Shown here piece by piece: positions 2,898 through 20,532 of a stretch of DNA of 23,657 bases; position 1 is the first letter of the stretch; each line of letters opens with the position of its first letter. The stretch is from a virus. The notes beneath the pieces are model-generated. The model was not told the origin of the DNA. It saw nothing but the letters and a program-made list of their open reading frames with translations, and searched no databases. The stretch covers positions 1 to 23,657 of IMG/VR virus record IMGVR_UViG_3300030101_002635, one strand, 5' to 3'. Both the position numbers and the translations under genes were made by a program.

Positions 2898-3686
2898 TTA
2901 AGCGGCTTCTGGTATACCCTGAAACTTTCTGTTCAGAATTCTTCGCACCTTAGAATAATTGATATTTGCATCGTTGTGAAGTGAATTAACCTGATTTGCA
3001 ATCTTTCGTGGACCTAGACCACGATCAGCTAATCGATGTATTGTTTTTAGAATTTTCTGCTCTTCCTCAATCGGCTCAAGCCTGACACGCTTTTTATTGC
3101 CGTGCCACTCTGTTACGCCACGAAATCCGTAGGGTGGCTTGCCACCAATAAAATAACCACGCTCTGCCCAATCAACCTTGCCATCGCCAAATCGGTCTTT
3201 TATAGTAGCGTGTTCGATCTCAGAAACTGCTGACAAAACCATCAACATAATCTGGTTTGCCATCTCATTCATATCGAACTTGCTTCGCAAACCTTTCTTC
3301 TTTTCAGCTTTCGGGTAGACAATCGGCATCTCACCAAACTGCTCAGAGAAATAGAGCGATATACCAATGTCCTGCAAAGTCGGAATCATTGACAGCAGAT
3401 CCGCACTTGAACGCGACAGTCGATCCAGCTTGGTCGCAACAACCACATCGAATCGATCAATAACGTCAGTAAGATCCTTACTGGCAGGACGCTCAAGAAT
3501 TGGGCGCGTGCCGCTTACGCCATCGTCAATAAAGAACTGGTCAACTGGGCGATTGTACTTTTGCTGCACAAAGGCGCTGATCTGGCGTTGTTGCACTTCG
3601 ACAGAAACGCCAGAGCGAACCTGTTCTCGCGTGCTGACACGCACATAACCATAGATGTTATTGACTTGCTTGATCGGTGTAATCAC
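2898..3686 (-). CDS. serine recombinase (resolvase/invertase family, 262 aa)
   Basis: The N-terminal catalytic domain shows YGYVRVSTREQ with nucleophile Ser18 and Arg16, then ATKLDRLSRS (about 84-92), the usual arginine-bearing segment of resolvases. A short Recombinase-type region (GGKPPYGFRG, about 175-185) and a C-terminal helix-turn-helix-like segment (GLGPRKIANQVNSL) follow. At 262 residues it is longer than Gin/Hin-type invertases (about 180-190) and much shorter than large serine integrases. The start is GTG at 3686, preceded by GGGGAGG and overlapping the upstream stop by four bases (GTGA). It could be the phage integrase, a fibre-module invertase or an acquired resolvase; no flanking crossover sites were recognised. 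Confidence 0.9.
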   Translation of the reverse strand: MITPIKQVNNIYGYVRVSTREQVRSGVSVEVQQRQISAFVQQKYNRPVDQFFIDDGVSGTRPILERPASKDLTDVIDRFDVVVATKLDRLSRSSADLLSMIPTLQDIGISLYFSEQFGEMPIVYPKAEKKKGLRSKFDMNEMANQIMLMVLSAVSEIEHATIKDRFGDGKVDWAERGYFIGGKPPYGFRGVTEWHGNKKRVRLEPIEEEQKILKTIHRLADRGLGPRKIANQVNSLHNDANINYSKVRRILNRKFQGIPEAA

Positions 3687-10454: not shown

Positions 10455-13400
10455 TCATCTTCCGCCGACTCGTAGTCGAATCTCGGCGTTGGTGAAGATA
10501 TCGCCTGTGTCTTCATTGAGGGGTTTAGGGACATCAATCCCAACGGAGTTGTCGATTCTCGCATAAGCGTCTGCCTCTCCTCTTCGTCTTAATAAATTGT
10601 AAGTCTGCGATGGCAAATCACCGACTTCATCAATCAGGTAATCGGGAGGAATTAATTTATTGCTGCCAAGGAACCGCAACAACATTCTCCGCAACGCCTC
10701 ATCTGCTGGCACCGCAACATCCACAAGATTTACCTTGTAGCCAGCCTTCTTGTAATCAGCTATCTGCCTTGAAATTTTTTCAGGCTTGGCACCAACAGTC
10801 GGAACCACAATGTTATTTCGGTTGGCAATCATCAAGTCACGCAAATCTTGCGTAATTCTTTTCGACTCAACATGGGTGGCATTCGATCCGATACCCTCTG
10901 CAAACTCAGGCATGATCTTCTTGACTTCATCAGGATCTAAGATCGCAGCATCATACTTTCGCGCCAATGGGTTGGCGATCATGCTCTTGCCAGCTGCTGG
11001 CGGTCCCAGAATAATCGTTGCGACAGGATTCTTGTTACCACCCTTCACAGTGCCAGTGTACGGCACGCGGTCATCATCCCAGCCTAACCGCTTTAGTTTA
11101 TCATACATTTGCTCCAAAGCGTTATCTATTCCAACAACTTCCCTGCCGTCAATATTGAAACGCCGCGTGGCAAAGTATGTTTTGGTTCCATAACCTTTCG
11201 CCAACTTGGTCTCAGGTATCGCGTGCATCTGGGCGACCACTCTGGTAACCGCAGGATGCGATCTCACCGCTTGCCTGACTTCAGGATTTATCCGCGTGGA
11301 GCGCAACATCCGATCAAGATCAGATATCGCATCAGGATCAGGCATGTACTGCAACAACCGCGCTGCTCTTGGCGCTGTCAGCAAAGCACGTACACCACCG
11401 CCAAAAAGTGGAATTGCAGCAGCAGCATCGCCTGTGCCTGCTAACGCCTGAAGTGCAGCATCAAGATACTTACCACTTTCAATATTCTGAGCCAGTGAGG
11501 GCAAAGGCTCTCCGCCAAAAATGTCGGTGTCCTCTGCCGTTGGCATCGCAGGCAAGTTGCCTGAAATGTCGGCTATGCCAGAGCCGGGCACTGTCATTAC
11601 TGTCGCAAGATAAGCAGCTTGCTCTGGCGTGAGCAATTCCTCTCTCTCAAGAGTGGGATTGCGGATCATTTCAGAAACCGAGCCACCAAGGTTGTATTCA
11701 AAGATATCAATATCGTCCGTGTTCACTGCGCCACCTTGTGCATAGTCAGTACCAAGTTTTTCATTCATGTACCGAATCATGTTGTCTATCTTTTCATCAG
11801 TCATTGGCTCATACAAATGTTTTCTTTCCAAAGCTCCGATCTGCTCTCTGCGTGTAAAAGGCTGACCAGCTTTGTTAATTGATTCACTGAGCATTTTCAT
11901 CGTATCTGGAAACATGATTTCTGGAGGTATACTTTCTTGAAGACCGCCTATGTAAGTGCCGGGTATGCTCATGTTATAACTCTGGTGTAGTGGCTCTGAA
12001 AAAATATCAATGTCTGGTTGAGCGCTAAACATCGAATAACCAGAGGAACCTGATTCTATATTCGCTAAAGGTGGGCTGGTGGCTGTTTGCACAATATCAT
12101 CATAAATAGGAAATCCGAGATCCCTGAACTTGGCTTTTTTCATGTGTTGGACAACCGCCTTGCGAATCTCGCCTGCTCCCCTCCTTGGGAATCCACCCTC
12201 ACCCAAAAGCTGATTGAAAACATCAGGACTGGTGACTCCAACAAAATCTGGAATAGGATCGATGCTCGTACCAACGCCAGCGCGAACTGCATCATCAAAT
12301 TCTTTAATGGCTTTCTTTGACAAACCCAAGGCTGGTATCTGAGCCACCATTGCTGAAGCGATAGGGGCAGAAAAGTCAATTCCCTCCCTTGACATCGCTG
12401 AATAAACTCCAATTGGCTCCAAGCCAGTTCTTTCCGCAGCCTTGATCATATTATTTTGTTTTGACTGAGCGACTCCCTCCATCGATGCCCAGCCACGACC
12501 TTGAGCTTGATTTGCAATCGTGTAATCAGGTCCACCCTGTAACGGCACTGCCCTTGACAATGGAACACCTTTAACCTCTGAAATTGTCTCAACACCTCTT
12601 CCCTGCAAACTCACTGAACGATCACCAACAACGGGCACAAGCACCTTGTTGGATAGCGCTTCTGGGCTGACAATTACACGCGCTGACGGATCAAACTGGG
12701 CAATCTCACCCTCAAGTCGCAATTTTTCGCGGTTAAACACCGCAGGCTTTGTAAGGGTTTTTTTATAACGAGTCGTATTGCTTTTGGCAGTTTTTGGCGT
12801 AGCGCCCAAAGCTACTTGTTTTTCAAAAAAATCATCAAGCAAATCATTTTTGGTGATACTGCTTTTACTCGCCAGCTTCAATGTCTTGGCAGTTGCTTGT
12901 GGAACTTTCAAAGCTGTTCCAACCGCAGCGAATGGCGTTGCCTGCAAAACATCGCCAGCCACGCCTAATCCTTGCAGTGCCGCTGTCCCAAGATTTCCTT
13001 GACGAATATTTTCGGCTAAAGATAAATTCGGATCTGAAGAAAATATGTCAGTGATGTCTGCATCGCCTGTCGGCATACCAGCCATCTTACCTGACGCATC
13101 AATCGTTGCGGAGCCGGGCAGAAGCTGGGAACCAAAGTAGGCTAGCTGTGTGGAAGAGGGCAAATAATCAAAGATATCGACATCTTCAGAGGAAACTTCT
13201 CCACCCTCTGCCTTTAGGATGTCTGGAGATTCTATTTCATCTGGATCAAACTTGGCAAATGGAGAACGTAGGTCTTTTGGATCAAATACGGCAAAAGTTT
13301 CATAAGGAACATCTTGCGGTTTCTCAGCAATTTTCTTGGGATTTGTAACGGTGTCCTCTCTGAGAAACATTGAGTCATAACCTTTGCCTTTAAGAAAATC

Positions 13401-14369
13401 AACCATTTCTTTGTTTTCATACAAAATAAAATTACCGCTTTTCAAGGCATCTTTATAAGTCGGCATATTATCCGCTGGGCTGAAAGGCTCACTCATTTTT
13501 TCACTGCCAAAAAATTCTTCCAGAACATCTACATCTTTGTGCGGCACAAAAGGTTTTTTGGTTTTGGATACAAGGGGGTAAATTACTTTATCTGCATCAC
13601 GTATGTTTTGAGCAATTTCTTGAAATTTTTTATCGTATTCTTCATCGTAAAGTTTCAGAATTTCATCTTCCGAAAGTCCTTTAGCTTTTTCTTCAAATTC
13701 ATCGTCTAATTTTTTTTTCCTTTCTTTTTCTTTTTTAACTGATACACCATCTTGCCTTTCCCGAAACTTGCCTTTGCCAAGCCAGTTTTCAGCAAACTCT
13801 GGATCAGGCGTTGTGTATATCATTCCATCAGGATAAAAAGATTTTAATTCAGTTATATCTTGCTTGCTGGCATGGTAGAGCCTGCCTTCTGGTGCCATAT
13901 TGAAACCAAGTCTTGAAGCTCTTTGAATTCTTTCGCTTGGCTCTTGAAAATCATCACCAAACCTTGCTTTGTTTGCCTCTTTGCGTAGCTCTGCGATCTT
14001 TTCAGCTTTGCTTGCCGCCCTAGCTGCCCTCATCGGAGCAATTGCAGCCATCGCTGGTGGAAAGAGATCGCCAATTCCGCCAGCAACTTGCAACCCAGCG
14101 TCTAAAAGCTCACGATTGCGGATATTCTCCAATAATGATGGACCTCTGGGGCCAGCAGTCATCTCAGCAACGGTCATTTCGGGGTTAGTGGGGAAAGCTG
14201 GGTACTCACCAAAGATATCCGCTATGCCAGAACCAGTAGCAAAGCCACCAGTGAGGTTGGCGAGTTGCGCTGGAGAGATATTGATCGGATCAGCTTCAGG
14301 TTGAGGATCTCGCATCAGTGGAGCGACAGAGCCTCCAAGGTTGTATGCGAAAATGTCGATATCCTTCAC
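10455..14369 (-). CDS. three-module polyvalent protein with ADP-ribosyltransferase-like and zeta-toxin domains (1304 aa)
   Basis: Residues 3-102, about 396-476 and 886-984 are three copies of one module: DIDIF, a GG-x-V-type hinge (GGSV in copies 1 and 3), a PGSGIADI-like core, then LAENI and AALQ segments. After copy 1 (about 163-370), LYHAS with Y-T-T-P-D-P-E-F-A and later AVFDPKDLRSPFAKFDP match the ADP-ribosyltransferase-like domain of phage polyvalent proteins. After copy 2 an unrecognised region with VPLQGGPDY and GRGWASMEGV lies at about 540-870, with another DIDIF at 786-790. After copy 3, GPPAAGKS (1122-1129) is a zeta-toxin Walker A. The GTG at 14369 overlaps the nuclease stop (GTGA) and follows GAGGAAA. 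Injected multi-effector status is inference. Confidence 0.8.
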   Translation of the reverse strand: MKDIDIFAYNLGGSVAPLMRDPQPEADPINISPAQLANLTGGFATGSGIADIFGEYPAFPTNPEMTVAEMTAGPRGPSLLENIRNRELLDAGLQVAGGIGDLFPPAMAAIAPMRAARAASKAEKIAELRKEANKARFGDDFQEPSERIQRASRLGFNMAPEGRLYHASKQDITELKSFYPDGMIYTTPDPEFAENWLGKGKFRERQDGVSVKKEKERKKKLDDEFEEKAKGLSEDEILKLYDEEYDKKFQEIAQNIRDADKVIYPLVSKTKKPFVPHKDVDVLEEFFGSEKMSEPFSPADNMPTYKDALKSGNFILYENKEMVDFLKGKGYDSMFLREDTVTNPKKIAEKPQDVPYETFAVFDPKDLRSPFAKFDPDEIESPDILKAEGGEVSSEDVDIFDYLPSSTQLAYFGSQLLPGSATIDASGKMAGMPTGDADITDIFSSDPNLSLAENIRQGNLGTAALQGLGVAGDVLQATPFAAVGTALKVPQATAKTLKLASKSSITKNDLLDDFFEKQVALGATPKTAKSNTTRYKKTLTKPAVFNREKLRLEGEIAQFDPSARVIVSPEALSNKVLVPVVGDRSVSLQGRGVETISEVKGVPLSRAVPLQGGPDYTIANQAQGRGWASMEGVAQSKQNNMIKAAERTGLEPIGVYSAMSREGIDFSAPIASAMVAQIPALGLSKKAIKEFDDAVRAGVGTSIDPIPDFVGVTSPDVFNQLLGEGGFPRRGAGEIRKAVVQHMKKAKFRDLGFPIYDDIVQTATSPPLANIESGSSGYSMFSAQPDIDIFSEPLHQSYNMSIPGTYIGGLQESIPPEIMFPDTMKMLSESINKAGQPFTRREQIGALERKHLYEPMTDEKIDNMIRYMNEKLGTDYAQGGAVNTDDIDIFEYNLGGSVSEMIRNPTLEREELLTPEQAAYLATVMTVPGSGIADISGNLPAMPTAEDTDIFGGEPLPSLAQNIESGKYLDAALQALAGTGDAAAAIPLFGGGVRALLTAPRAARLLQYMPDPDAISDLDRMLRSTRINPEVRQAVRSHPAVTRVVAQMHAIPETKLAKGYGTKTYFATRRFNIDGREVVGIDNALEQMYDKLKRLGWDDDRVPYTGTVKGGNKNPVATIILGPPAAGKSMIANPLARKYDAAILDPDEVKKIMPEFAEGIGSNATHVESKRITQDLRDLMIANRNNIVVPTVGAKPEKISRQIADYKKAGYKVNLVDVAVPADEALRRMLLRFLGSNKLIPPDYLIDEVGDLPSQTYNLLRRRGEADAYARIDNSVGIDVPKPLNEDTGDIFTNAEIRLRVGGR
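11418..11714 (-). repeat. module copy 3 of the polyvalent protein
   Basis: This covers residues about 886-984, with DIDIFEYNLGGSV, PGSGIADI and PSLAQNIESG. It is more similar to copy 1 than to copy 2 and precedes the zeta-toxin domain. Confidence 0.65.
12942..13184 (-). repeat. module copy 2 of the polyvalent protein
   Basis: Residues about 396-476: DVDIFDY, then LPGSATIDASG, MPTGDADITDIF, LAENIRQGNL and AALQGLGVAGD. The GGSV segment is missing, and an AEGGEV linker comes before it. Confidence 0.6.
14064..14363 (-). repeat. module copy 1 of the polyvalent protein
   Basis: Residues 3-102: DIDIFAYNLGGSVAPLM, then GSGIADIFGEYPAFPT, SLLENI and LDAGLQVAGGIGD. It precedes the ADP-ribosyltransferase-like domain. 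Confidence 0.65.
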
Positions 14370-14788
14370 GCGATTTCCTCAAGCTGGGGAAAATAAAGCT
14401 CTTCATCGAGATCAAGACAATTAAACCACTCTTCAAGCGTCATCACAACTGTACGGTAGTTGTCTTTCTCAAGGCTGGGGTTCACGAAATACAATGGGAC
14501 CACAGCGCGGATGGGTTTGTTGTTAAATTTGAAGATCAAAACTGGCGTTTTGTCGCCGCAGGAGTCAACACATTGAATCCACCAAGCCTCCTGATACCAG
14601 CAGCCGTCCTTGTACGCTTTGCATTCAATGGAATAGTTGGGTAGATCGATATCACACTGGTTTGAAACCTGATATTGCTCAAGATTTCGCTTGACGCGAA
14701 CTGAAGAGCGGCGATCTTGCAGGAATTCGTTGATTCGCTTGCAGATTTGAAGCTCAAATTTTGCGCCTTTGTTCCGTGAATCAACCAT
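14366..14788 (-). CDS. PD-(D/E)XK nuclease, possibly Holliday junction resolvase-like (140 aa)
   Basis: The sequence has KGAKFE (Glu12), CDIDL (Asp46, Asp48) and IECKAY (Glu55, Lys57), the metal-binding signature of PD-(D/E)XK nucleases at typical spacing. The Q-Y-Q-V-S-N-Q-C-D-I stretch and later a conserved Trp-rich segment (YQEAWWIQC) resemble small phage resolvases, and a role in resolving branched DNA before packaging is plausible. The ATG at 14788 follows GAGGAG within the preceding gene end, and the stop overlaps the polyvalent start (GTGA). Confidence 0.75.
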   Translation of the reverse strand: MVDSRNKGAKFELQICKRINEFLQDRRSSVRVKRNLEQYQVSNQCDIDLPNYSIECKAYKDGCWYQEAWWIQCVDSCGDKTPVLIFKFNNKPIRAVVPLYFVNPSLEKDNYRTVVMTLEEWFNCLDLDEELYFPQLEEIA

Positions 14789-15294: not shown

Positions 15295-15816
15295 TCAGTG
15301 ATCTTTGTCTTCCATTTCATCCTTTAAGCCAAGCAGTTCGCTCAGTCTGTTTGTGATGTCTTCCTTGCTCATTTTGTCGATGTTTGCGTTTATGTTTAGC
15401 GATTGACTGCGATGAATGTTCAGCCCTGCCAGTTGGTTCAGTTCCTTGATAGCTGACACACTGGCATTATATGCGCCTGCTTCAAATGCAGTCTCCGCAA
15501 TCTTCCATAACATCGTGCCAGTTTTCTGAGGCGTAATCGCATACTTCTCACGCAGTTCATCTTGGGCAATCCGTATCGCTCTCGTAACGTGCGGTTGATC
15601 TTTTCCATTCAACATCTTGGTTGCCGCTTGCGAAGGAAAGCTGAAGCCTGCTCTTCGCGCAGCTTCTGTCTGACCGCAAGCGCCCTCAGTGTAATGCCAA
15701 ACGAAAGCACTCTGCATTTCAGTCAAACCAAACTCTTCGTCTGCATTAAAATCTGGCACGTTCACCAGCTTCGTGTGCATCTTCTTCGGTCTACCAACTT
15801 TGTTCTTTTGCGCCAT
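15295..15816 (-). CDS. terminase small subunit (173 aa)
   Basis: The N-terminal third has a basic start, then LTEMQSAFVWHYTEG and a Q-T-E-A-A-R-R-A-G-F-S helix-turn-helix-like segment (about 50-60), with a following PSQAATKMLNGKD; this is the DNA-recognition pattern of Terminase_2-type small subunits. The centre has A-Y-N-A-S-V-S-A-I-K-E-L-N-Q-L-A-G-L, a common oligomerisation helix. The C-terminus is acidic (LLGLKDEMED). The ATG at 15816 has a weak ribosome-binding site. No large terminase follows in this window; the next genes on this strand are a zinc ribbon and a nuclease. Confidence 0.85.
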   Translation of the reverse strand: MAQKNKVGRPKKMHTKLVNVPDFNADEEFGLTEMQSAFVWHYTEGACGQTEAARRAGFSFPSQAATKMLNGKDQPHVTRAIRIAQDELREKYAITPQKTGTMLWKIAETAFEAGAYNASVSAIKELNQLAGLNIHRSQSLNINANIDKMSKEDITNRLSELLGLKDEMEDKDH

Positions 15817-16113: not shown

Positions 16114-18297
16114 TTACCAGTTTCTCTCACTGAATTTATCCCCCACATTATCATCGTTTTCGATAGGCTTATAGTCGATATCGTAGATTTTTCTGCCACC
16201 AGTTCGCCGTGCTTCAACGCCATAATCAGCTAACGTGCGTGCCGCTTCTTTGAAGTCTGGCATCCGTGGATTAGCTATCCCAAGATCACGCAACAGCTTT
16301 GTCATTTGAACTGGCTCAGTGAGATTGCTGTCGAAGTTTACGTGTTCAAGGATAAGATCCTCCACGCTGCTTTGCGTCCTGTGCATTTCGTTGGCTTCGT
16401 TCAACAACGCCCTTTCTTCCGCATTGAGGAACCAGTTGCGCTCACCCTCGACATATAAAGTCTCTTTCACCTCTGCCCAGACTTGTTGCATATTGAGTTG
16501 ATGCTTATTATCGATTGCCTTCACAGGCACAACCCAGAACCGCCTGTTTCCACTTGTATCGACCAAGAACTCTCGCTGGTTGACGCTGGCAAAGAAACTG
16601 GTGCGCCGTTTGTACGTTGTAAAAGCTCTGTCGTATGGCAATCTGAGTTCATCACTTTTGCGCGTAATGAACGCCTTTAGTTGATCAATGTCGGCTTTCT
16701 TAAAAGTTGATTCCACTTCGCCAGCTTCAACGATCCAGTGGCTGACCGCTTGCTTCACGCTGTCTTTATCGGCTGGGTTGATCGTGGCACCTTCCAAAAG
16801 CCAATCTTCCTTCGCTGGGCATAGCTTTTTAAACCAAAGCGTCTTGCCCATGCCTTGCGGCCCTTGGAATATAAGTATGCCCTCCAGTGCTACACCGTCT
16901 GGTTCATAAGCTGCTGCAATCGATGAAAGCATCCACTTTTTCATTAGCATTTCTTTCAGATCAGAGTTATCGCTCTCAACCGTGTCGAGAAAAAGTGGCA
17001 GTCGCATCTTTCCATCCCACGGTCGGCTGTCAATCCATTCCTTCACAGGGTTGTATTCACTCGCTAAGAGTTTGAGGCAATCCCTGACCCGATTATGCGG
17101 CATACCCATCTCGATGCAGCGATCTTCGATTTCAATGAGTGCGCTTTCGTCTTGCATATCCTGAATGAAGTCGGAGTTTGGCACGGCGATCTCCATGCGC
17201 TTTTTGATGACGTTGTACCTGACATCAATCTGGTTTACCAACAGCACACCTCTGATGTTTTCTTTGGTGTTCATGTAACGACCGTTGGCGCTTTTCTGGA
17301 AATCGTAACTGGCTGGCACGTTGATGCTTTGCAGTGCTGGCAACACTTCGCCTTCTATCTCCTCGCTTACCAGCGTTTGCTTATGGTCATTGTAATCGCC
17401 TTTTGCCGTTGGCATCAGCACCTCTGCCTGAGAACCAGCGTCTTTGATGATCTGCGCTGCTTTAATTGCCTCTTTCTCCCCTGTCTGACTCTCGTCAAAG
17501 TCAGCGATGAAAACGTGCTTTGCCTGTGGAAAAAATTTGACAATGACCTCTGCAACAGGCGAGAGATTGAACGCATCAAATGCGACAATCACTGGCTGGT
17601 TAAGATCCTCAAAATAACTTGCGCCAGTTGCGTAGCCTTCTGCGTAGTTGATAATCTTTGTGTTTTGTTTAAGAACGTCCTTACCAATGATGAAGAAACT
17701 GCCTTTCTTTTTACTACCTGTAAGGAATTTCTTGCCGCCATCCTCATCAATGAACTGCAACCCAACCACTTGCAAGTCTTCATCTTGCATGGGAACCAAG
17801 AGTTGATTATTGTCTCCCACCTTGAGTCCGTGGTTTTCTACCCCCTTCTTTTTTAAGTAGGGATGAATTTGAATCTCTTCAGCTTTGCTCCAGATATTTT
17901 GGGCACGCTTTGCTGCTCGTGTGTGCTTCTCAGCTTTTTCGATTTCAGCCTGTTCTTTCAACTGCCTGATCTCTTCACGCTGCTCATCGGTAATCGTTCG
18001 GCTCCCTTTATTTTGCGGTTTCCAAACAGCCGTAGGCTTTTTATGATCGATTCTATAGTCGCCAGCTTGTCCAAAGGGCAGGCTTTGATCCAACCAGAGT
18101 TGATACCAGCCAACCAGTTTGCGCTTGCCATCTACATCCATGTAAGCCCTGCCGATGCTCCCATCAACTATCAGACCTTTGTTTGGATCGACCTCCATGC
18201 CGTTCTGAGCCAAGAAGCTCTGGAACTCCTCCCGATAGTTTCCTGAGAGCGGTGTGTCGAAGTTTTTGATGTTCGGTCTTTTTATTTTTAACGACAT
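16114..18297 (-). CDS. primase-helicase (Toprim plus VirE-like ATPase, 727 aa)
   Basis: Toprim-type residues are at Glu220 (NYAEGYATG), Asp266/Asp268 (FIADFDES) and Asp301 (GDYND). A P-loop helicase/VirE domain follows with Walker A GPQGMGKT (479-486), WIVEAGEVES (521-530) as Walker B, FFASVNQ (568-574) as sensor and TSGNRRFW (581-588) with probable arginine finger. A coiled-coil region (about 103-135) precedes the Toprim domain, and no CHC2-type zinc motif is present. Primer synthesis plus unwinding at the replication fork is expected. The ATG at 18297 follows AAAGGAA. It is divergently transcribed from the SSB-like gene. Confidence 0.85.
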   Translation of the reverse strand: MSLKIKRPNIKNFDTPLSGNYREEFQSFLAQNGMEVDPNKGLIVDGSIGRAYMDVDGKRKLVGWYQLWLDQSLPFGQAGDYRIDHKKPTAVWKPQNKGSRTITDEQREEIRQLKEQAEIEKAEKHTRAAKRAQNIWSKAEEIQIHPYLKKKGVENHGLKVGDNNQLLVPMQDEDLQVVGLQFIDEDGGKKFLTGSKKKGSFFIIGKDVLKQNTKIINYAEGYATGASYFEDLNQPVIVAFDAFNLSPVAEVIVKFFPQAKHVFIADFDESQTGEKEAIKAAQIIKDAGSQAEVLMPTAKGDYNDHKQTLVSEEIEGEVLPALQSINVPASYDFQKSANGRYMNTKENIRGVLLVNQIDVRYNVIKKRMEIAVPNSDFIQDMQDESALIEIEDRCIEMGMPHNRVRDCLKLLASEYNPVKEWIDSRPWDGKMRLPLFLDTVESDNSDLKEMLMKKWMLSSIAAAYEPDGVALEGILIFQGPQGMGKTLWFKKLCPAKEDWLLEGATINPADKDSVKQAVSHWIVEAGEVESTFKKADIDQLKAFITRKSDELRLPYDRAFTTYKRRTSFFASVNQREFLVDTSGNRRFWVVPVKAIDNKHQLNMQQVWAEVKETLYVEGERNWFLNAEERALLNEANEMHRTQSSVEDLILEHVNFDSNLTEPVQMTKLLRDLGIANPRMPDFKEAARTLADYGVEARRTGGRKIYDIDYKPIENDDNVGDKFSERNW

Positions 18298-19485: not shown

Positions 19486-20532
19486 ATGGCGCAGATTGTT
19501 CTTAAATCAAATCCAATAGAAAAAGACGAAATTCTGGAGGAGCTTTCTCAAAACTTTGATTTTGAATTTTCTGGGGTTTCTGAAACGTGCGTGCCTACTT
19601 TGGAAGAGTTGCCGAAAGATTTTCAAATTGGTTTGATTGTTGGTCCATCTGGCAGTGGTAAATCCACCATGTTGAAACTATTTAACGAAGAAAAAACGCC
19701 AGTTTGGTCTGAGAGCAAAGCTATAGCATCTCACTTTGTTAACGCACAAGACGCTCAAGACAGGTTGAGCGGTGTTGGCCTCAACTCGGTCCCAGCGTGG
19801 TTTAGGCCGTATCACATACTTTCAACAGGTGAGCAATATAGAGCTAACCTCGCTAGAAAATTAAATAATGAAGCGGTTGTGGATGAATTTACCAGCGTTG
19901 TGGACAGATCAGTTGCCAAGTCGTGCTCTCGTGCCGTGTCAAGATACATTAAGAGTAACGACATTCATTCAATGGTTTTTGCGTCTTGTCATTACGACAT
20001 CATCGAGTGGCTGGAACCAGATTGGGTTTTTGACACTTTGACTCAAAAATACCTTTCAAGGGGGTCACTTTGGCGTGCCAAAATTGAATTGGAAGTTGTA
20101 CCATGTTCGGCGCTTGCGTGGTCAATCTTCAGCAAGCATCACTATTTGTCAGCAAACCTCAATAAAAGTGCAAAGCACTGGATGTGCAGTTGGGACGGAA
20201 CACCAGTTGCCTTTACCTCTGTGATTGCCATGCCAAGCGGCACGTTGAAAAACGCTTTCAGAGGTCACAGAACAGTTGTCTTTCCAGATTATCAAGGTCT
20301 TGGAATCGGGGTCAGATTGAGTGACGCAATCGGTCAAATTTATGTCAGCGAGGGTAAAAGATATTTTAGCAAAACGACTCACCCTCGCATGGGAGCTTAT
20401 CGGAACGCATCGAATAAATGGAAAGCTACTTCTAAAAATATGCGCGTCAGAGGCGATTTTGGAGGGAATAAAAACATCGAATGGGAACCACGTAAAGTGT
20501 TTAGCTACTCACACGAATTTATTGGAGGTTAG
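19486..20532 (+). CDS. ABC-type ATPase fused to GNAT (Mom-like) acyltransferase-fold domain (348 aa)
   Basis: Residues 53-61 are a Walker A (GPSGSGKST), 112-126 the signature-like LSTGEQYRANLARKL, 130-140 the Walker B (EAVVDEFTSVVD) and His169 (SCHYDI) the switch histidine. There is no membrane segment, so it is not a transporter. The C-terminal 205-348 is GNAT-like: HHYL at 218-221, then QGLGIGVR (about 270-277), the acyl-CoA loop, and KTTHPRMGAYRN. The HHYL pair resembles the His-Tyr pair I recall as important in phage Mu Mom, a GNAT-fold DNA-modification enzyme. ABC-GNAT fusions are annotated in many bacteria, but the role here is unknown. It sits between replication genes. Confidence 0.7.
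   Translation: MAQIVLKSNPIEKDEILEELSQNFDFEFSGVSETCVPTLEELPKDFQIGLIVGPSGSGKSTMLKLFNEEKTPVWSESKAIASHFVNAQDAQDRLSGVGLNSVPAWFRPYHILSTGEQYRANLARKLNNEAVVDEFTSVVDRSVAKSCSRAVSRYIKSNDIHSMVFASCHYDIIEWLEPDWVFDTLTQKYLSRGSLWRAKIELEVVPCSALAWSIFSKHHYLSANLNKSAKHWMCSWDGTPVAFTSVIAMPSGTLKNAFRGHRTVVFPDYQGLGIGVRLSDAIGQIYVSEGKRYFSKTTHPRMGAYRNASNKWKATSKNMRVRGDFGGNKNIEWEPRKVFSYSHEFIGG

Follow-up and report, generated by a model that had tools for sequence, protein, structure and literature searches.

What purpose might be served by a phage protein in which one module occurs three times, each copy in front of a different domain? The question is raised by a 1304-residue open reading frame (ORF) in the IMG/VR virus record IMGVR_UViG_3300030101_002635, positions 1 to 23,657, which was analysed over its full 23,657 nucleotides (the window) and is possibly a fragment. 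A sequence-only reading had described the product as a polyvalent protein of repeated modules heading different effectors; that description is supported and extends to other phages. We lean, with somewhat better than even confidence, towards a polymorphic effector-cassette locus of uncultivated aquatic phages, in which effectors are swapped by recombination and likely sent to the virion. Modules, tag, linkers, effector range, cassette exchange, purifying selection and a fixed locus can all be read in the sequences. Within the effector ORF, the three cassettes of module and effector sit in one frame:

10455..14369, minus strand: effector ORF, 1304 aa, GTG start, three cassettes; letter-for-letter identical in contig L002 (IMG/VR)
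13995..14369, minus strand: module copy 1 (residues 1-125), predicted to be mostly disordered with short helices (alignment and profile; predicted local distance difference test (pLDDT) 30-45 over the first ~110 residues)
12873..13193, minus strand: module copy 2 (residues 393-499), a short form without YNLGGSV (alignment and profile; pLDDT 33-78)
11370..11723, minus strand: module copy 3 (residues 883-1000) (alignment and profile)

Comparison with shuffled sequences and a profile bear out three related modules, each before a different domain. Local alignment scores between the copies are 185 (1 vs 3), 145 (2 vs 3) and 72 (1 vs 2); the best shuffled scores, in the same order, are 62, 65 and 67, and none of 2000 shuffles per pair reached the real score. 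The profile recovers the window copies with E values of 2e-45, 4e-39 and 8e-46, partly by construction because these copies are among its seed sequences. The consensus reads D-I-D-I-F-x-Y ... Q-x-A-Y ... P-G-x-G-x-x-D-x-x-G-x-x-P-x-x-P ... S-L-x-E-N-I-x-x-G-x-x-x-x-A-x-L-Q-x-x-G-x-x-G-D-x-x-x-x-x-P. The motifs named in the sequence-only reading are present as DIDIF (copies 1 and 3) or DVDIF (copy 2), LLENI/LAENI/LAQNI and AGLQ/AALQ. Its PGSGIADI is found as (P/T)GSGIADI in copies 1 and 3, but copy 2 reads PGSATIDA, and its length of 80-100 residues is better put at 105-125. AlphaFold assigns low confidence to copy 2 and to most of copy 1 (the latter from a shallow alignment), in contrast to the middle domain of the same model (pLDDT 89-98), so the module is likely a flexible header carrying short helices rather than a compact fold. 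The module alignment matches no Pfam family, MuF included, and its identification with a known Pfam domain was rejected. A profile search of the nearest cultured relatives by terminase (HTVC023P, HTVC027P, DSL-LC04 and 023Pt_psg01; part of each genome) found no module.

Module-bearing ORFs are not confined to the window. Pooling IMG/VR module searches with scans for the middle domain and the ADP-ribosyltransferase (ART)-like domain described below yields 118 such ORFs in environmental phage contigs, 57 of which remain after near-duplicate removal, with 65 modules. Most modules (45 of 65) start within 60 residues of the ORF N-terminus. Nineteen of the 20 others directly follow GGx[VIAL], as would 12.6% of random positions; in the twentieth (L050), a GGTV lies about 8 residues further on. 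At least 100 residues follow 63 of the 65 modules, and one of the remaining two (L039) is cut by the contig end. The module heads unrelated effectors here too, and no relative was found in which it does not precede effectors. Pfam identifies followers as ART-PolyVal (L040, L045, L048; weaker in L017 and L077), Zeta (L075, L087), PBECR5 (L064), RelA_SpoT (L010, at 25.5 bits just under the cut-off of 27) and, weakly, GNAT (L045, L087). ART with middle domain and GNAT with zeta are among the combinations seen. Two-cassette fusions occur in independent contigs (L009, L017, L028, L029, L040, L050), and cassettes also occur as separate genes (L064, L082, L089). A large group of followers (L016 and others) carries no named domain. 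Followers in L016, L065, L074, L078, L084 and others have in common an ELQSD-type domain (FxxDELQSD ... RITPEM ... EEG) that no Pfam family matches; it is also present at the start of L008.

Each module copy opens with a short acidic tag, and copies 2 and 3 are preceded by glycine-rich linkers, found as AEGGEV (residues 387-392) and AQGGAV (residues 877-882), in agreement with the EGGEV and QGGAV linkers of the sequence-only reading:

14349..14363, minus strand: DIDIF tag 1 (residues 3-7), directly after the start codon (motif scan)
13194..13214, minus strand: GG linker 1, KAEGGEV (residues 386-392) (sequence)
13170..13184, minus strand: DVDIF tag 2 (residues 396-400), 4 residues past the GG linker (motif scan)
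11724..11744, minus strand: GG linker 2, YAQGGAV (residues 876-882) (sequence)
11700..11714, minus strand: DIDIF tag 3 (residues 886-890) (motif scan)

The tag marks cassette starts, junctions and some C-termini. Across 49 module ORFs, the pattern [DN][IVT][DN][IV]F is present 34 times, where shuffled sequences average 0.38. Of these occurrences, 18 are N-terminal and 9 lie near the C-terminus, 7 of them preceded by GGx[VI]; another 4 are internal and immediately follow GGx[VI], and 3 lie elsewhere. Its codons vary freely (GAT 16, GAC 15; ATA, ATC or ATT), and since they vary synonymously while the amino acids stay, the tag is selected as protein; a DNA-level site was rejected on the same grounds. 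Module-less ORFs of the locus begin with the tag as well, in 23 hits that include many near-duplicates, where shuffled sequences give 1.2. In some of these ORFs, profiles tie a divergent header to the module. This second header type (LAGFTPxGxAAD... after the tag) is seen in L078:8984-10696, followed by a RelA/SpoT-like and ART-like region identified by eye, and in L011:5196-7295, followed by ART; its profile connects to the main module by way of intermediates such as L188. In four contigs examined over long stretches, terminal DIDIF is found only in ORFs of the effector locus, which leaves a tag on all virion proteins unsupported. The linker is predicted to be disordered (pLDDT 33-51). Its fuller form, [YF]AxGGxV, is common to the C-termini of unrelated effectors, and GGx[VIAL] lies within the last 45 residues of 26 of 57 module ORFs compared with 69 of 553 other long ORFs; the tail ends single-cassette proteins as well.

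Exchange of cassettes is seen between contigs L009 and L010. Over a 6-kb stretch that ends midway through module 1, the two share 99.4% identity. Past this breakpoint, L009 encodes the middle domain, a GG linker, module 2 and zeta, and L010 encodes RelA/SpoT; beyond the exchanged effector, identity returns to 96.6-99.5%. The L010 module corresponds to copy 1 of L009 up to AALQGLG, then to ~50 nt matching neither copy, then to copy 2 of L009. L028 and L029 have a RelA/SpoT cassette 95% identical to the one in L010, compared with 77-90% for the non-cassette region before the module copies. L020, L024 and L019 are ~97% identical once inserts of ~360 and ~570 nt immediately behind the module are set aside. 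Within one ORF alignment, synonymous divergence (Ks) is 0.82 for module 1, 0.135 for the middle domain and 0.047 for module 2, with a ratio of nonsynonymous to synonymous divergence (Ka/Ks) of ~0.1; module Ka/Ks is 0.11-0.12. These values portray the effector ORF as a mosaic under purifying selection. From the effector stop to the shared flank there are about 110 nt in L009 and about 240 nt in L010; this leaves no room in L009, and little in L010, for an immunity gene swapped together with the effector.

The three domains behind the modules differ in how firmly they can be assigned:

13221..13913, minus strand: ART-like domain (residues 153-383), YHASKQD ... DGMIYTTPDPEFA ... ETFAVFDP (profile-profile E 4e-4, probability 34%; family alignment)
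11742..12857, minus strand: middle domain (residues 505-876), a new alpha/beta domain family, confidently folded (pLDDT mostly 89-98; 71 loci)
10605..11033, minus strand: zeta-toxin kinase domain (residues 1113-1255), Walker A GPPAAGKS (Pfam PF06414 E 1.9e-19)

The zeta-toxin domain after copy 3 is clear from both its Pfam match and its Walker A motif; in the whole protein, Pfam matches only zeta/AAA families. The ART-like domain after copy 1 is the weaker assignment. Its YHxSxxDI and H-motif region matches relatives bearing ART-PolyVal, at the profile-profile values listed, and a profile scan of viral contigs places its family at 30 loci. Pfam reports no match for residues 131-395, leaving the ART-PolyVal (PF18760) cut-off unmet, although relatives L040, L045 and L048 do match. 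In the family alignment, the H of the ART H-Y-[D/E] signature is invariant, the Y is replaced by F in most relatives, and the third position is ambiguous. No PDB fold is matched at E<=0.001 by the model, which is weak (mean pLDDT 68), and a fold assignment was dropped for that reason.

The middle domain matches nothing in PDB (best E 0.64) or Pfam, and PHROG only below threshold. Among viral predicted structures, 17 match at E<=0.001, mostly uncharacterised phage proteins; one (BFVD) is annotated 'structural protein', from Flavobacterium phage elemoC, for which a literature search found no paper on virion proteomics. Across its viral loci the domain stands as a separate protein in phages MW202879, C72C1 and CRP-902 and is joined to an inorganic-pyrophosphatase domain in MW202675; a scan of bacterial and archaeal genomes found no relative. 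Residues D583, W627, S629, R736, H795 and Y798 are near-invariant. A further DIDIF (residues 786-790) lies inside this domain and is not a module copy. Other phages encode module-free versions of the ART-like and the middle domain, which makes the module a separable header rather than part of either.

The effector locus has a fixed position, with terminase-small-subunit and nuclease genes on one side and tail genes on the other, as judged from gene order: primase-helicase, terminase small subunit, nuclease, effector ORF(s), small genes, serine recombinase and tail-type genes.

16114..18297, minus strand: primase-helicase gene (Toprim and VapE-like), conserved neighbour (family matches and related loci)
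15295..15816, minus strand: terminase small subunit gene, conserved neighbour (phrog_51 E 6e-10; order kept in related loci)
14366..14788, minus strand: PDDEXK/RusA-like nuclease gene, coupled, upstream of the effector ORF (PF24608 E 6e-9, phrog_244 E 1.8e-17)

The GTG start of the effector ORF overlaps the stop of the nuclease gene (GCGTGA) and has GAGGA just before it, which makes the start credible and suggests that the two genes are coupled. In contig G004, genes for the terminase large subunit, portal and capsid come immediately downstream of a module gene and share its strand. The serine recombinase (PF00239; window 2898-3686) is part of the conserved locus order and might invert or exchange something nearby.

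Under the reading we favour, a cassette comprises a DIDIF tag, a header module, an exchangeable effector and a flexible [YF]A-x-GG-x-V tail. Effectors range over ART-like, RelA/SpoT, zeta kinase, PBECR nuclease, GNAT-like and unknown folds, in cassettes that stand singly, as tandem genes or as in-frame fusions; the window holds a fusion of three. Near-identical phages exchange effectors by recombination in or just after the header. Tag and header would direct all effectors to one shared destination, for which the virion or one of its components is the most probable candidate; the effector would enter the next host with the DNA and may attack or re-programme it through protein modification, alarmone level, or wall-precursor or nucleotide kinases. 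Known families (PMC5512222, PMC5576092) are the basis for inferring these effector mechanisms and a header that brings effectors to a delivery site; packaging into virions and injection are plausible. The sequence-only reading had proposed a packaging or ejection signal reused three times. The reuse fits a terminal DIDIF and a low-confidence header on unrelated effectors, together with the module Ka/Ks; the packaging or ejection role stays conjecture. A bolder version, which we regard as tentative and rather doubtful, is that DIDIF tag and header form a plug-and-play cargo signal, by which any carrier is loaded into the phage particle or attached to a portal or core protein, that phages evolve by swapping effectors behind it, and that the middle domain is a new effector fold.

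Several points weigh against the favoured reading. For the many downstream domains with no known function, the name 'effector' is an assumption, and the pieces known best, ART-like and RelA/SpoT, have weak scores. The phages are uncultured, and two module queries against 50,697 named phage records gave no match. The predicted structural proteins of the four contigs examined carry neither tag nor module, and the target of such a tag could be something other than the capsid.

Virion location is itself an inference here, and the proteins could instead be made and act in the infected cell, in superinfection exclusion, against rivals or as host take-over 'moron' genes, with a header that targets a host structure. 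The serine recombinase and the hypervariable accessory-gene character of the region would suit such a role, and toxin-antitoxin and defence systems likewise contain zeta, ART and RelA/SpoT domains (PMC5512222). We nevertheless consider it unlikely, as the locus adjoins terminase and head genes in the same orientation and no cognate antitoxin or immunity gene appears to accompany the swapped effectors in the short intervals of L009 and L010.

A smaller chance attaches to the repeats being a recombination platform alone, a module spread by tandem duplication or homologous exchange with no function beyond that of a linker. Breakpoints do fall in or beside the module, which is mostly disordered by prediction, but such a platform would sit poorly with the low module Ka/Ks, with tag amino acids kept while codons vary, and with a header kept even where it is single-copy. 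We find it equally improbable that the ORF is a polyprotein, its fused cassettes cut at GG by a phage protease that releases separate effectors, which the sequence-only reading had also raised. The shared junction on unrelated effector C-termini lies in flexible sequence, cassettes are also encoded as separate genes, and self-processing peptidases are reported in polyvalent proteins (Iyer et al. 2017, PMC5512222). Against this, a cut at the tail of a single-cassette protein would free only a short peptide, and Pfam finds no peptidase domain in the window protein. Finally, although repeats in a metagenomic contig can cause false joins, an assembly artefact joining separate genes is very improbable in view of the identical ORF in L002, the two-cassette fusions in independent contigs and the in-frame linkers.

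We class the favoured effector-cassette locus with polyvalent proteins and MuF-type phage polymorphic toxins, of which it is a variant; the header is its new part. Polyvalent proteins (Iyer et al. 2017, PMC5512222) combine several unrelated conflict domains (ART, RelA/SpoT, zeta-like kinase, PBECR nuclease) per polypeptide, are encoded near packaging genes and have been proposed to be delivered with the DNA. The window protein likewise joins at least two unrelated domains (ART-like, middle and zeta), and its gene lies near packaging genes (terminase small subunit and nuclease here; terminase large subunit, portal and capsid in G004). It differs in the common header and DIDIF tag before each effector, repeated within one protein; no such header was found in the text of Iyer et al. 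2017. MuF polymorphic toxins of temperate phages (Jamet et al. 2017, PMC5576092) share a constant N-terminal phage domain and variable C-terminal toxins encoded near packaging genes. Unlike them, the window protein has no MuF domain, its header is repeated with GG linkers, and its gene follows the nuclease and terminase small subunit genes rather than directly following the portal gene. Polymorphic toxin systems (Zhang et al. 2012, PMC3482391) also pair a constant N-terminus with diverse C-terminal toxins generated through recombination with cassettes. The present system resembles them in exchanging C-terminal effectors behind a constant N-terminus; it is phage-encoded, has no evident immunity gene (L009, L010) and fuses cassettes serially in one protein. 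Phage T4 Alt, an injected ADP-ribosyltransferase, may offer a precedent for head-derived delivery of an ART, although it follows a single-domain logic with no repeated header. Alt belongs to a different ART clade (PMC5512222).

A short tag conserved as protein on unrelated effectors, combined with natural swaps between 99%-identical phages, offers a direct test system for how DNA-accompanying proteins are chosen. To our knowledge, this choice is known for few phages. The locus also yields a list of candidate host-takeover proteins encoded by phages that lack any cultured member, and the middle domain (71 loci, a confident model and no PDB match) is a good structure target. The terminase large subunit of contig G001 is 57-60% identical to those of pelagiphages HTVC023P and HTVC027P and of lake phage DSL-LC04; the window phage has a GC content of 39-50%, which we take not to suggest SAR11 as host.

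Three further observations concern other parts of these genomes. One ORF of the window (19486-20532) combines an ABC-type ATPase motif (PF00005 E 2e-6) with a GNAT-like region (PF00583 E 3e-4). Adjoining ORFs in L050:8346-9141 share a repeated unit, DSLxxxGFLxxx, and possibly represent a tandem repeat region rather than real genes. In the sibling phages L018 and L020:12841-13474, a GWGRGTWG-type gene has internal repeats, seen as multiple offset alignments, which may reflect tail repeat variation.

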